From Arthrobacter zhaoxinii (GTDB taxonomy: Bacteria; Actinomycetota; Actinomycetes; Actinomycetales; Micrococcaceae): a stretch of DNA of 64,000 bases. The number at the start of each line of letters is the position of its first letter. Positions within the stretch are counted from its first letter, which is position 1. Below are positions 13,982 to 17,093 of this stretch, one piece after another. The translations under genes were made by a program, and so were the position numbers. The stretch covers positions 1 to 64,000 of the forward strand of contig NZ_CP104275.1 in assembly GCF_025244925.1 (NCBI RefSeq), written 5' to 3'. The notes under the pieces were generated by a model. The model was not told the DNA's origin and searched no databases. It saw only the letters and a program-made list of their open reading frames with translations.

Positions 13982-14524
13982 ATGACTGCTATTCCTACAG
14001 CAAAAGCAACCATCCACACTTCCATGGGCGACATCAGTGTCAACCTCTTCGGAAACCACGCCCCCAAGACGGTCAAGAACTTCGTCGGCCTGGCTACCGG
14101 CGAGATCGAGTGGACCGATCCGGCGACGGGCGAAAAGACCAACCGCCCGCTCTACGACGGAACGATCTTCCACCGCATCATCAAGGACTTCATGATCCAG
14201 GGCGGCGATCCCCTGGGCCGCGGCACCGGCGGACCGGGTTACCAGTTCGATGACGAGATCAACCCTGATCTCGACTTCTCCGCCCCGTACAAGCTGGCCA
14301 TGGCCAACGCAGGCGTGCAGATGGGCCGCGGCACCAACGGCTCGCAGTTCTTCATCACCTCCGTGCCCACCACGTGGCTGCAGGGCAAGCACACCATCTT
14401 CGGTGAGGTTGCCGACGACGAATCGCGTGCACTGGTTGATCAGCTCAACGCTGTTTCCACCGACGGCCGCGACAAGCCGACCGAAGACGTGGTCATCAAC
14501 AGCATTACCGTCGAGCAGCTCTAG
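13982..14524 (+). CDS. ppiA: Peptidyl-prolyl cis-trans isomerase (cyclophilin)
   Basis: The 180-residue protein is a single-domain cyclophilin that interconverts prolyl peptide bonds. Conserved active-site segments are FHRIIKDFMIQGGD and GSQFFIT, with the substrate-pocket Trp in TTWLQGKHTIFGEV. No signal peptide is seen, so it is cytoplasmic. The ATG at 13982 matches the family length; longer in-frame starts at 13871 and beyond read through non-conserved sequence. A PpiA gene at this distance from gyrA is common in actinobacteria (Rv0009). Confidence 0.93.
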   Translation: MTAIPTAKATIHTSMGDISVNLFGNHAPKTVKNFVGLATGEIEWTDPATGEKTNRPLYDGTIFHRIIKDFMIQGGDPLGRGTGGPGYQFDDEINPDLDFSAPYKLAMANAGVQMGRGTNGSQFFITSVPTTWLQGKHTIFGEVADDESRALVDQLNAVSTDGRDKPTEDVVINSITVEQL

Positions 14525-14537
14525 CCTGCTCGAAGAT

Positions 14538-14570
14538 GCCCCGGCCGGATTCTCCGGCCGGGGCCTTTCT
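14538..14570 (+). terminator. Intrinsic terminator of the cyclophilin gene
   Basis: GCCCCGGCCGGA (14538-14549) pairs perfectly with TCCGGCCGGGGC (14553-14564) across a 3-nt loop, followed by CTTTCTT. Confidence 0.8.
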
Positions 14571-14590
14571 TCAATCCGGGAGTTCCAGCA

Positions 14591-15451
14591 ATGTCATATG
14601 GAGTGCCGGCCGAGGTGCCGGATTCGCAGGTGCCCGTGTGTCCCCGCCATCCGGACCGGGTCAGCTACATACGCTGCCAGCGCTGCGGGCGCCCGGCCTG
14701 CCCCGAATGCCAGAAGAATGCCGCCGTGGGTGTGCAGTGCATTGATTGCTTCAACCAGCAGCGCAAGGACCAGCCGGCCTACCGCACCTCCTTTGGAGGC
14801 CGCGTTGCCGGCAATGGAAAACCCGTGGTTACCATCACGATCATGGCTGTCTGCGCCGTCGCCTACGTCCTTCAGCTGCTGCTGCCGGAATTCACGCGCA
14901 CCTTCTTTTACGCCCCCGTACTGACGGACTCCCAGCCGTGGCGGATGCTCACCTCGGCGTTCCTGCATTCCCAGGGCAGTCCCATTCACATTGCCTTCAA
15001 CCTCTATGCCCTCTGGTTCCTGGGCAGCAGCCTGGAACCACTGTTCGGCCGCGCCCGCTTCGCCCTGCTCTATCTGATTTCCGCAGTAGGGGGCTCCGTG
15101 GGCGTGATGTACCTCGGAGAGCCCGTCACAGCCGTGGTGGGGGCCTCCGGCGCTGTCTTCGGCCTCTTTGGTGCACTGTTCGTCGTGATCCGGCAGCGGC
15201 GCGGGGAACTGCGGTCCCTGCTGGTCCTGCTGGCGGTGAACCTGGTCCTGGGGTTCGTAGTGCCCGGGATCGCCTGGCAGGCCCATGTAGGCGGTCTGCT
15301 GACCGGCGCGGCCTGTGCAGCCATTCTGGCGTATACACCGAGGAGCAGGCACCGAACGGCCATTCAGTTCGCCGGACTGGCGGGGATTGTGCTGCTGCTT
15401 GTCGCGGCGGCGGTGCTCTGGCAGGCCCCCGTACGGATCATCCCGGGGTAA
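14591..15451 (+). CDS. Rhomboid family intramembrane serine protease with N-terminal Cys-rich module
   Basis: Rhomboids cleave transmembrane helices within the bilayer. The 286-residue protein has the catalytic serine S186 in GASG and histidine H232 in WQAHVGG, with about six or seven membrane helices from residue 77 on. An N-terminal soluble module has C17, H20, C29, C32, C37, C40, C50 and C53, a B-box-like pattern likely to bind two zinc ions. This two-part architecture is common in actinobacterial rhomboids such as Rv0110. A substrate is not suggested by neighbours. ATG start at 14591. Confidence 0.92.
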   Translation: MSYGVPAEVPDSQVPVCPRHPDRVSYIRCQRCGRPACPECQKNAAVGVQCIDCFNQQRKDQPAYRTSFGGRVAGNGKPVVTITIMAVCAVAYVLQLLLPEFTRTFFYAPVLTDSQPWRMLTSAFLHSQGSPIHIAFNLYALWFLGSSLEPLFGRARFALLYLISAVGGSVGVMYLGEPVTAVVGASGAVFGLFGALFVVIRQRRGELRSLLVLLAVNLVLGFVVPGIAWQAHVGGLLTGAACAAILAYTPRSRHRTAIQFAGLAGIVLLLVAAAVLWQAPVRIIPG

Positions 15452-15471
15452 CCGGCCCTTCCCGAAGAGAA

Positions 15472-15503
15472 CTGTGCCCGCTGCTTCCCTGCAGCGGGCA
15501 CAG
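15472..15503 (+). terminator. Hairpin after the rhomboid gene
   Basis: CTGTGCCCGCTGC (15472-15484) and GCAGCGGGCACAG (15491-15503) form a perfect 13-bp stem with a 6-nt loop 21 nt after the stop codon. The following bases GCGTTTA make a poor U-tract. Confidence 0.6.
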
Positions 15504-15533
15504 GCGTTTAACGGCGCCCACACTGCTGCAAAG

Positions 15534-15751
15534 TTATCCACAGGGATACCCACAGTGTTAATAACCTACATGGTTGTAGTTTCCGGATCCTGAGCCGGAT
15601 CCACAGGGTTATCCATAGGCTGGGAAGACTTACACACATGTAATTCCACAGCTGTGGATAACCCGCTTCCCTTTATTTGCAAGGAAGTTCGAGAAGTAAC
15701 CCACAGAGTTACCCACACCTGTGGATAACTCCGTGCACAACCTGTGAACAA
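15534..15751. promoter_or_regulatory. Extra-origin DnaA-box cluster
   Basis: The 393-bp gap between the rhomboid and crgA genes carries a second dense set of DnaA boxes, about 13 kb from oriC. Exact consensus sites are TTATCCACA (15534-15542), TGTGGATAA (15653-15661) and TGTGGATAA (15720-15728). Near matches are ATACCCACA (15546-15554), TTATCCATA (15609-15617), TAACCCACA (15697-15705), TTACCCACA (15709-15717) and TGTGAACAA (15743-15751). Density equals that at oriC. Possible roles are DnaA titration, DnaA reactivation, an auxiliary origin module or DnaA control of crgA; sequence alone cannot choose. Confidence 0.85.
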
Positions 15752-15786
15752 CAGGAAAAAACGGGGATAGCGGCATCCGGGGGCAC

Positions 15787-15826
15787 AAAAAAGGCTTCCC
15801 GGTGCCGAAGACGGCACGGGAAGCCT
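15787..15826 (-). terminator. Intrinsic terminator of crgA
   Basis: On the minus strand AGGCTTCCCGTGCCG pairs with CGGCACCGGGAAGCCT (one bulged base) and is followed by a run of six T (complement of 15787-15792). It lies about 20 nt after the crgA stop. Confidence 0.88.
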
Positions 15827-15844
15827 GACCTGCAAGCGGGAGGG

Positions 15845-16093
15845 TCAGCGCCAGCGCGGAGTCATCAGGAAGCCCAAAATCGCGATGCCGAAGCCCACCA
15901 GGATGTTACGGCCACCGAAAGACGGCACAGGGTACTGGCCCTGGGTGACGTAGTACGTAATGATCCACAGCAGACCCAGAATCATCAGGCCGAACATCAC
16001 CGGTTTGTACCAAACCGGGTTTTCTTTGGGAGTCGACACGGTTTTGGCCGGGGCAGGGCGGGAAGCCTTCTTGCGGGACTTGGACTCAGGCAC
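15845..16093 (-). CDS. crgA: Cell division protein CrgA
   Basis: CrgA is a small septal membrane protein that interacts with FtsZ-ring and peptidoglycan synthesis proteins in actinobacteria. The 82-residue product has a basic N-terminus (PESKSRKKASRP), the conserved NPVWYKPVMFGLM entering helix 1, and a second helix ending FLMTPRWR, the family hallmark. The GTG at 16093 is chosen because AGGAGG (complement of 16098-16103) is 4 nt upstream; an in-frame start 30 codons earlier adds non-conserved sequence. It neighbours the envelope-growth operon at 18-27 kb and follows a DnaA-box cluster. Confidence 0.93.
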   Translation of the reverse strand: MPESKSRKKASRPAPAKTVSTPKENPVWYKPVMFGLMILGLLWIITYYVTQGQYPVPSFGGRNILVGFGIAILGFLMTPRWR

Positions 16094-16295
16094 GGATCCT
16101 CCTAGCGGAACCGGCTCTGCAGACGCCGGTGGTTGTAGTGATGGTCGGGGACAACCGCAGCCCGCAGGAGAAGTCTCCTTCACCGCACAGACCTGTTAGG
16201 GTCATCCCTATTCTGATTATCCTAGCGAATTCCCCGGCCAAGCTGGCGCCGGTTCCCTGACGCCGCGAAATACCGGCACCGCCATAAGGAGAGCA

Positions 16296-17093
16296 TTGGC
16301 TGAGCCATCCGTCACCACCATGCAGCGCCGCCGCGGGCGCCGCACTTCCTCCCGCCGTCCGGCAGGGAAAGGGAGGATGGTGGTACAGGTCATCGGTGAG
16401 CTACTGATAACACTGGGGATTATCCTTGCCCTGTTTGTTGCATGGCAGCTCTGGTGGACCAACCTCGAGTCAAACCAGGCACAGCAGGAAGCCATTGACG
16501 GGTTGTTTGAGGACTTTGACCTGCCGGCAGCACCGGCCCCGGCTGCTTCGCCCCAGGACTACGGGGAACCGGTGGTGATGGAACCGATGAGTGCGGAAGG
16601 GACGACGTTCGCCGTCGTCTACGTGCCCCGCTTCGGCGAGCAGTATTCCACACCCGTGACCAGCGGGGTGGGAACGGCGGTGCTGGACACCCTCGGGCTG
16701 GGGCACTACCCCGCAACCGCCATGCCCGGTGCCGTGGGGAACTTCGCGGTAGCCGGCCACCGGCAGACCCATGGCAAGGCACTGGATCCCATCCACACCC
16801 TGGTACCCGGCGACCATATCTATGTGCAGACCGCGGACGGGTACTACGACTACGTCTACCGCAATACGCAGATAGTGCTTCCGGACCGGGTTGATGTACT
16901 CGCCGCCGTCCCCACGGAGCCCGCAGCGGTCCCCAGCGAGCGGTTCCTCACCCTCACCAGCTGCAATCCGCGCTTCGGGTCGCAGGAACGCATTATTGCC
17001 TATGCCCTGATGGACTCCTGGCAGCCCTTGTCTGCTGGTCCGCCGGCGGCAATCGCCGACGTCGTTGCCGCCAATGCCTCCGGAGGTCGCTAA
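16296..17093 (+). CDS. Class E sortase
   Basis: Sortases cleave a C-terminal sorting signal and attach the protein to the cell wall; class E enzymes usually prefer LAXTG-type signals. The 265-residue protein has a basic N-terminus, one membrane helix (about 30-52) and the catalytic triad H155 (AGHRQTHG), C223 (LTSCNPRFG) and R232. The TTG start at 16296 has AAGGAGA about 5 nt upstream. No gene in the window obviously encodes a sorting-signal substrate. The next small gene begins 1 nt after its stop, so they are co-transcribed. Confidence 0.92.
   Translation: MAEPSVTTMQRRRGRRTSSRRPAGKGRMVVQVIGELLITLGIILALFVAWQLWWTNLESNQAQQEAIDGLFEDFDLPAAPAPAASPQDYGEPVVMEPMSAEGTTFAVVYVPRFGEQYSTPVTSGVGTAVLDTLGLGHYPATAMPGAVGNFAVAGHRQTHGKALDPIHTLVPGDHIYVQTADGYYDYVYRNTQIVLPDRVDVLAAVPTEPAAVPSERFLTLTSCNPRFGSQERIIAYALMDSWQPLSAGPPAAIADVVAANASGGR

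Follow-up and report, generated by a model that had tools for sequence, protein, structure and literature searches.

The first 64,000 nucleotides of contig NZ_CP104275.1 of Arthrobacter zhaoxinii, hereafter the window, contain a dense cluster of DnaA boxes in the gap between a rhomboid gene (PF01694) and crgA (PF06781), both placed by Pfam matches. Other genes of the window, named by reading its open reading frames, include dnaA, dnaN, recF, gyrB and gyrA, and oriC is generally placed at dnaA–dnaN. The cluster (15534–15751) stands on the 3′ side of crgA, about 13.3 kb from the boxes of the dnaA–dnaN region (2023–2220) and 13.8 kb from the dnaA C-terminal match, in agreement with the distance of about 13 kb from the oriC field given in the original prediction, an earlier note on this DNA. 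The dense cluster described there is real: 11 DnaA sites occupy 218 bp, comprising the three exact boxes claimed and eight near matches rather than about five, with seven sites on the forward strand and four on the reverse strand. Box directions are mixed, as had been stated, whereas the proposed split between left-hand and right-hand types holds only roughly, as forward boxes also stand at the right (15697 and 15709). Two palindromes, at 15566–15579 and 15630–15643, were absent from that account. The features of the cluster are given below, with all boxes taken from a box scan.

15534 (+), 15653 (−) and 15720 (−): exact TTATCCACA boxes
15609 (+) and 15709 (+): boxes with one mismatch
15546 (+), 15556 (−), 15597 (+), 15630 (+), 15697 (+) and 15743 (−): boxes with two mismatches
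15534..15542, + strand: DnaA box 1, exact
15546..15554, + strand: DnaA box 2, two mismatches, aligning with box 2 of relatives
15556..15564, − strand: DnaA box 3, reversed and weak (TTATTAACA), ending 1 bp before the first palindrome
15566..15579, no strand: first palindrome, CTACA-N4-TGTAG, from a palindrome search and the cross-class alignment A2
15597..15617, + strand: second tandem box pair (two mismatches, then one mismatch)
15630..15643, no strand: second palindrome, TTACA-CACA-TGTAA, from the palindrome search
15630..15662, + strand: 33-bp core combining the palindrome with two boxes set head to head, single-copy in 29 of 29 genus genomes at up to 2 mismatches
15653..15661, − strand: exact reversed DnaA box in the core
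15697..15751, no strand: right-hand box group (forward 15697 and 15709, reversed exact 15720, reversed 15743)

Boxes and palindromes form a composite unit

Relatives share a 50-bp unit in which a box is followed, after 4 bp, by a second box, a reversed weak box and the motif TTACA-N4-TGTA(A/G)TTC. The window carries the unit twice, with the palindrome at 15566 in one copy and at 15630 in the other, plus the right-hand box group, which in an alignment is partly conserved in two congeners. Three box-like sites stand ahead of the first palindrome; box 2 comes 12 bp after box 1 in the window and 13 bp after it in many relatives, and a reversed box-like sequence precedes the palindrome in most rows of alignment A2. 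Across relatives the spacing of the palindrome to the boxes is constrained, with a nearly fixed register in the alignments, and the second palindrome lies in the most conserved part of the element. Its full sequence, CTTACANNNNTGTARTTC, has a single occurrence in the genome of the window. As a candidate regulon motif the palindrome was rejected: CTTACANNNNTGTARTTC is present in 6 of 23 relatives, once in each, the pattern being too strict to catch every element.

Exact TTWTCCACA boxes number six in the window, three of them in the cluster, compared with a shuffle mean of 0.43 for the window as a whole. The entire genome holds 32, and only two places bring three of them within 250 bp, the rhomboid–crgA gap and the rplI–dnaB gap; when 32 sites were placed at random, any such triple arose in 3 of 20,000 trials. 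The rplI–dnaB cluster, with three exact boxes within 96 bp (L001 10065–10310; G000:C1:3423064–3423309), matches a mycobacterial DnaA site upstream of dnaB. A separate group of nine DnaA-box-like sites with up to two mismatches lies at 267–491 of the window, upstream of dnaA, a place from which DnaA would be expected to control its own expression.

Conservation in the genus, the class and beyond

Each of the 29 genus genomes compared (the window's own and one of the same species among them) carries exactly one copy of the 33-bp core, at 0 to 2 mismatches, and all 29 share its first 22 bases unchanged. Conservation in close relatives, the absence of which was one of two findings that the original prediction would have accepted as a refutation, is borne out by the core. 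Alignment with two congeners gives an identical core and spacers of varying length. Beyond the genus we searched with R1, a sequence-only model made from 32 units of the window's family. It found a match in all 61 family genomes, a result owed in part to its having been built from such loci, and in 117 of 148 genomes of the class. Searches of more than 40 genomes with models used stricter filters, at which weak matches are lost.

Proximity to crgA recurs among these matches. Thirty R1 loci were retrieved, two of them from the window's own genome or family, and 22 hold both rhomboid and crgA genes, two crgA only, four rhomboid only and two neither. With crgA placed independently by PF06781 in 146 of the 148 class genomes, its position could be compared in 114 of the 117 genomes with a match, or 113 once a genome without a placed crgA (G125) is removed. 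Among the matches listed, 87 of these 113 genomes have their best R1 match no more than 2 kb from crgA, with at least one such genome in each of 24 families; the corresponding counts are 85 of 111 outside the window's family and 24 of 29 at E values up to 1e-6. We also inspected 60 hand-chosen crgA 3′ gaps, which represent 33 other families at one to four gaps per family and include both genomes that R1 matched and genomes that it did not. The palindrome core is present in 29 of the 60, a post hoc count since the pattern was drawn up after inspecting the gaps, compared with a shuffle mean of 0.035 and a largest value of 1 in 200 shuffles. These gaps together hold 69 exact boxes (shuffle mean 0.21), with at least one in 42 of 60. 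Four gaps from the large genomes of family f20 (L095, L096, L097 and L121) have three to four exact boxes beside crgA and no palindrome core, an apparent loss or replacement of the palindrome.

The distance from the element to dnaA has a median of 20.6 kb, is within 40 kb in 48 of 61 genomes and reaches 132 kb at most. This sample was drawn from 63 hand-picked genomes with the element and dnaA on one contig, two of which (G137 and G186) were left out; it includes five genomes of family f25 with the element away from crgA, and the distance in G134 is approximate.

We built a second model, R2, on 48 units spread over the class and searched 246 phylum genomes with it. At E values up to 1e-4 it found matches in 36, of which 22, in eight families, lie outside the class. 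In 20 of these 22 genomes (six families) a match stands 3′ of crgA at a distance of 1 to 375 bp; in three of the 20 this is the genome's second-best match. Orientation relative to crgA is as in the window in 18 of the 20, with G221 and G281 as exceptions, and the distance to the crgA match is as short as 1, 9 and 11 bp in three genomes. Linkage to crgA is lacking in G325 and in G316, where the dnaA match is 1.1 kb away.

A DnaA-bound counterpart in mycobacteria

The gap between Rv0010c and Rv0011c, the latter of which we take to be CrgA, resembles the gap in the window in being intergenic, on the 3′ side of crgA and near oriC, and in carrying a box cluster and a palindrome, which stand in the same order in alignment A2 and in named mycobacterial loci. 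It differs in its left neighbour, which is not a rhomboid gene and, judged by gene names, reads in the opposite direction. The mycobacterial palindrome is ATCACA-N4-TGTGAT-like whereas that of the window is TTACA-N4-TGTAA, and in the window the unit is repeated. A protein of G116 (family f7) is identical to that of named mycobacteria, from which it follows that f7 includes Mycobacterium.

According to the available portion of PMC7738170, the Rv0010c–Rv0011c gap is one of five DnaA-bound regions found by in vitro DNA affinity purification and sequencing (IDAP-seq), its DNA is shifted by DnaA in electrophoretic mobility shift assays, and homologues of the same five regions are bound by DnaA in vivo in M. 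smegmatis, as determined by chromatin immunoprecipitation sequencing. The same portion describes recurrent mutation, in clinical strains, of a palindrome that lies 65 bp ahead of the Rv0010c start, clinical changes in the site that reproduce dnaA-mutant phenotypes, and three mutants of the site with longer cells. DnaA binding is on record for mycobacteria, in vitro at Rv0010c–Rv0011c and in vivo at its M. smegmatis homologue (PMC7738170); in the window it is predicted. Four of the five mycobacterial DnaA-bound regions were looked at in the genome of the window, and these four have box clusters there. The authors of PMC7738170 state that the site has no obvious correspondence in other species; our own literature search, which was partial, found no description of the element outside mycobacteria.

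We compared mycobacterial crgA loci, taking the best 80 of 305 (at least two of them from one genome, and M. tuberculosis not among them). All 80 carry a class-type palindrome, mostly ATCACA-N4-TGTGAT, and in 78 an exact box stands no more than 50 bp away from it. In 73 loci the distance from the end of the palindrome to the conserved start of the following gene is 68 bp, close to the 65 bp given for the published palindrome. On the strength of position and motif, and with M. tuberculosis outside the loci compared, we take the palindrome mutated in clinical strains and the palindrome of the class to be the same. HigA2 binds an ATCAC-type palindrome at Rv0010c in vitro, which the accessible part of PMC11205783 equates with the DnaA interaction site; we considered HigA2 as a reader of the palindrome in general and did not adopt it, its recorded binding being to the mycobacterial site.

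Neighbouring genes and possible control of crgA

The gap is convergent: the rhomboid gene enters from the left and crgA from the right, so that both 3′ ends face the cluster.

14591..15451, + strand: rhomboid-family membrane protein gene, left neighbour (open reading frame; PF01694)
15472..15503, no strand: strong hairpin 3′ of the rhomboid gene (scan; RNA folding −30.2 kcal/mol, z −6.8)
15784..15832, − strand: hairpin followed by six U at the crgA 3′ end (RNA folding −29.5 kcal/mol, z −5.7)
15845..16093, − strand: crgA, right neighbour (PF06781 match 15848–16090)

In the consensus scan the rhomboid-side hairpin has a terminator-like score for the reverse strand only, the forward strand being without a clear T run. 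We read the hairpin at 15784..15832 as the crgA terminator, although the consensus scan did not list it, and GTG at 16093 as the crgA start codon. A search of 14500–16600 against Rfam at E values up to 1 returned five matches, all below the gathering score and all to the left of the cluster, and a simple scan found no sigma-70-like promoter.

The alternative that survives best is that DnaA at the cluster controls expression of crgA or of the gene to the left, perhaps by blocking the path of transcription at the crgA 3′ end, and so links replication to division. DnaA complexes are capable of arresting transcription in a single orientation, and such a role would agree with linkage to crgA both within and outside the class, where every one of the 20 linked cases lies on the crgA 3′ side, nearly all are oriented as in the window and three all but abut the gene. 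Control of crgA is made less likely by the convergent gap with its strong hairpins and by the parting of the element from crgA in family f25, a family of small genomes in which crgA lies more than 9 kb from the element in 7 of the 12 genomes with a match. The element stays with the rhomboid gene in three f25 loci (L036–L038), and it adjoins gyrB and a response-regulator gene in L059 and L061 and likewise at L119 9459–9508; the crgA gaps of two parted genomes (L119 and L120) contain no box and no palindrome core.

The left neighbour is no more constant. A rhomboid homologue is found in 61 of 61 sampled family genomes and is the left gene in most of the 30 R1 loci, but Pfam places a thiolase gene there in L078, L081, L113 and L115 (and farther off in L213, L218 and L220), and four mycobacterial-family loci (L204 and L206–L208) gave no rhomboid match. 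A suspected sortase fragment in L213 was without a match in a Pfam check. The lack of a promoter in the simple scan also speaks against a regulatory role, as does expression of Rv0010c and Rv0011c, unaltered in mycobacterial dnaA mutants in the available portion of PMC7738170. We consider regulation of crgA or its convergent neighbour unlikely, and this half of the role first suggested for the cluster is weakened by the arrangement of the gap, the f25 genomes and the mycobacterial expression results. The other half, titration or regulation of DnaA, gains from conservation, from proximity to oriC and from the DnaA-bound mycobacterial counterpart.

Seventeen loci with extra R1 or R2 matches were also retrieved. 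In two family genomes the extra match is a composite of box and palindrome upstream of dnaB (L231, at about 1094, and L234, at about 1093), which suggests that the palindrome accompanies DnaA sites and is not tied to crgA alone. Among the other extra matches, crgA is in the locus in L236 and L237, the match in L239 is 20 bp from a PF06781 match, and that in L223 is near dnaA by coordinates.

A candidate DnaA-control locus near oriC

Three further explanations were weighed. A chromosome-organisation or origin-tethering site, where a nucleoid or segregation protein reads the palindrome and the link to replication is provided by the DnaA boxes, would suit an intergenic element near oriC with a single core copy in each congeneric genome and a palindrome part invariant in 29 of 29. 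The element shows no resemblance to the parS consensus, no search for parS having been made, and in two genomes composite copies also stand upstream of dnaB, where DnaA targets of a known type are found; we regard such a site as quite improbable. An accessory replication origin or unwinding element would accord with the tandem boxes followed by an AT-richer stretch in family units, and is very doubtful; no DnaA-trio run with up to one mismatch adjoins any box of the gap, although the same pattern finds none at dnaA–dnaN and so does not discriminate. Chance or compositional clustering has no point in its favour and is negligible in view of the box excess in the window, the random-placement test, the gap shuffles and the conservation in the genus.

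From the architecture, conservation and position documented here, together with the DnaA binding demonstrated at the mycobacterial counterpart, we infer that DnaA binds this gap, and we think it probable that the gap is an oriC-proximal DnaA-control locus that changes the supply of active DnaA to oriC. Several DnaA molecules would assemble on the tandem and opposed boxes in nearly fixed register with the palindrome, the palindrome may be read either by two opposed DnaA molecules occupying weak half-sites or by a dimeric protein specific to it, and the resulting complex would alter the amount of active DnaA that reaches oriC. By analogy with Escherichia coli, a datA-like sink or inactivator is a tentative choice for its action, and a DARS-like reactivator seems somewhat unlikely. 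We rank the sink or inactivator above the reactivator because the site is close to oriC and, given that position, should be duplicated early after firing. On balance, the findings speak more for a locus that controls DnaA at the DNA level than for a site of gene regulation.

Several observations weigh against such a DnaA-control locus. At the cut-offs used, 31 of 148 class genomes have no R1 match and 210 of 246 phylum genomes no R2 match. The palindrome core is absent from 31 of the 60 inspected gaps and exact boxes from 18, and gaps of families f18 (three), f19 (two) and f20 (four) carry exact boxes without the core. The palindrome half-site departs from the DnaA box, and the mycobacterial palindrome is bound in vitro by HigA2. 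From the crgA linkage outside the class it would seem that the neighbouring gene may be of importance. In the available portion of PMC7738170, mycobacterial dnaA mutants have an unchanged initiation rate, and its discussion says that the rate is likewise unchanged in mutants of the site; simple titration is disfavoured because of these unchanged rates.

A broader proposal, to which we give slightly less than even credence, is that a composite element older than the split of this class from at least one other lineage of the phylum joins DnaA boxes, in nearly fixed register, to a palindrome read by a dimeric partner, that it is the actinobacterial counterpart of datA or DARS, and that the mycobacterial drug-tolerance hotspot is one instance of it. 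A single non-coding element with order and place kept across many families, and recurrently mutated in clinical tuberculosis strains (PMC7738170, portion available), is a defined target that can be studied in harmless soil relatives, and its palindrome could serve as bait for a possible DnaA partner.

Comparison with known DnaA-titrating and DnaA-reactivating sites

We claim no sequence homology between the cluster and datA of Escherichia coli. DnaA-box clusters of Streptomyces coelicolor were reportedly the subject of Smulczyk-Krawczyszyn 2006. Such clusters in this actinobacterium are called analogous to datA in the available part of PMC10950094. Like the cluster in the window, datA is a group of non-coding boxes near oriC, and it has the site of a second protein, IHF, at constrained spacing, according to the part of PMC4585315 available; in the window a palindrome stands at constrained spacing, no search for an IHF-type site having been made. 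The same part of PMC4585315 gives DARS1 and DARS2 of Escherichia coli a three-box core that also needs flanking DNA or other sites (in the window, three box-like sites stand before the first palindrome), and describes datA, not DARS, as always close to oriC.
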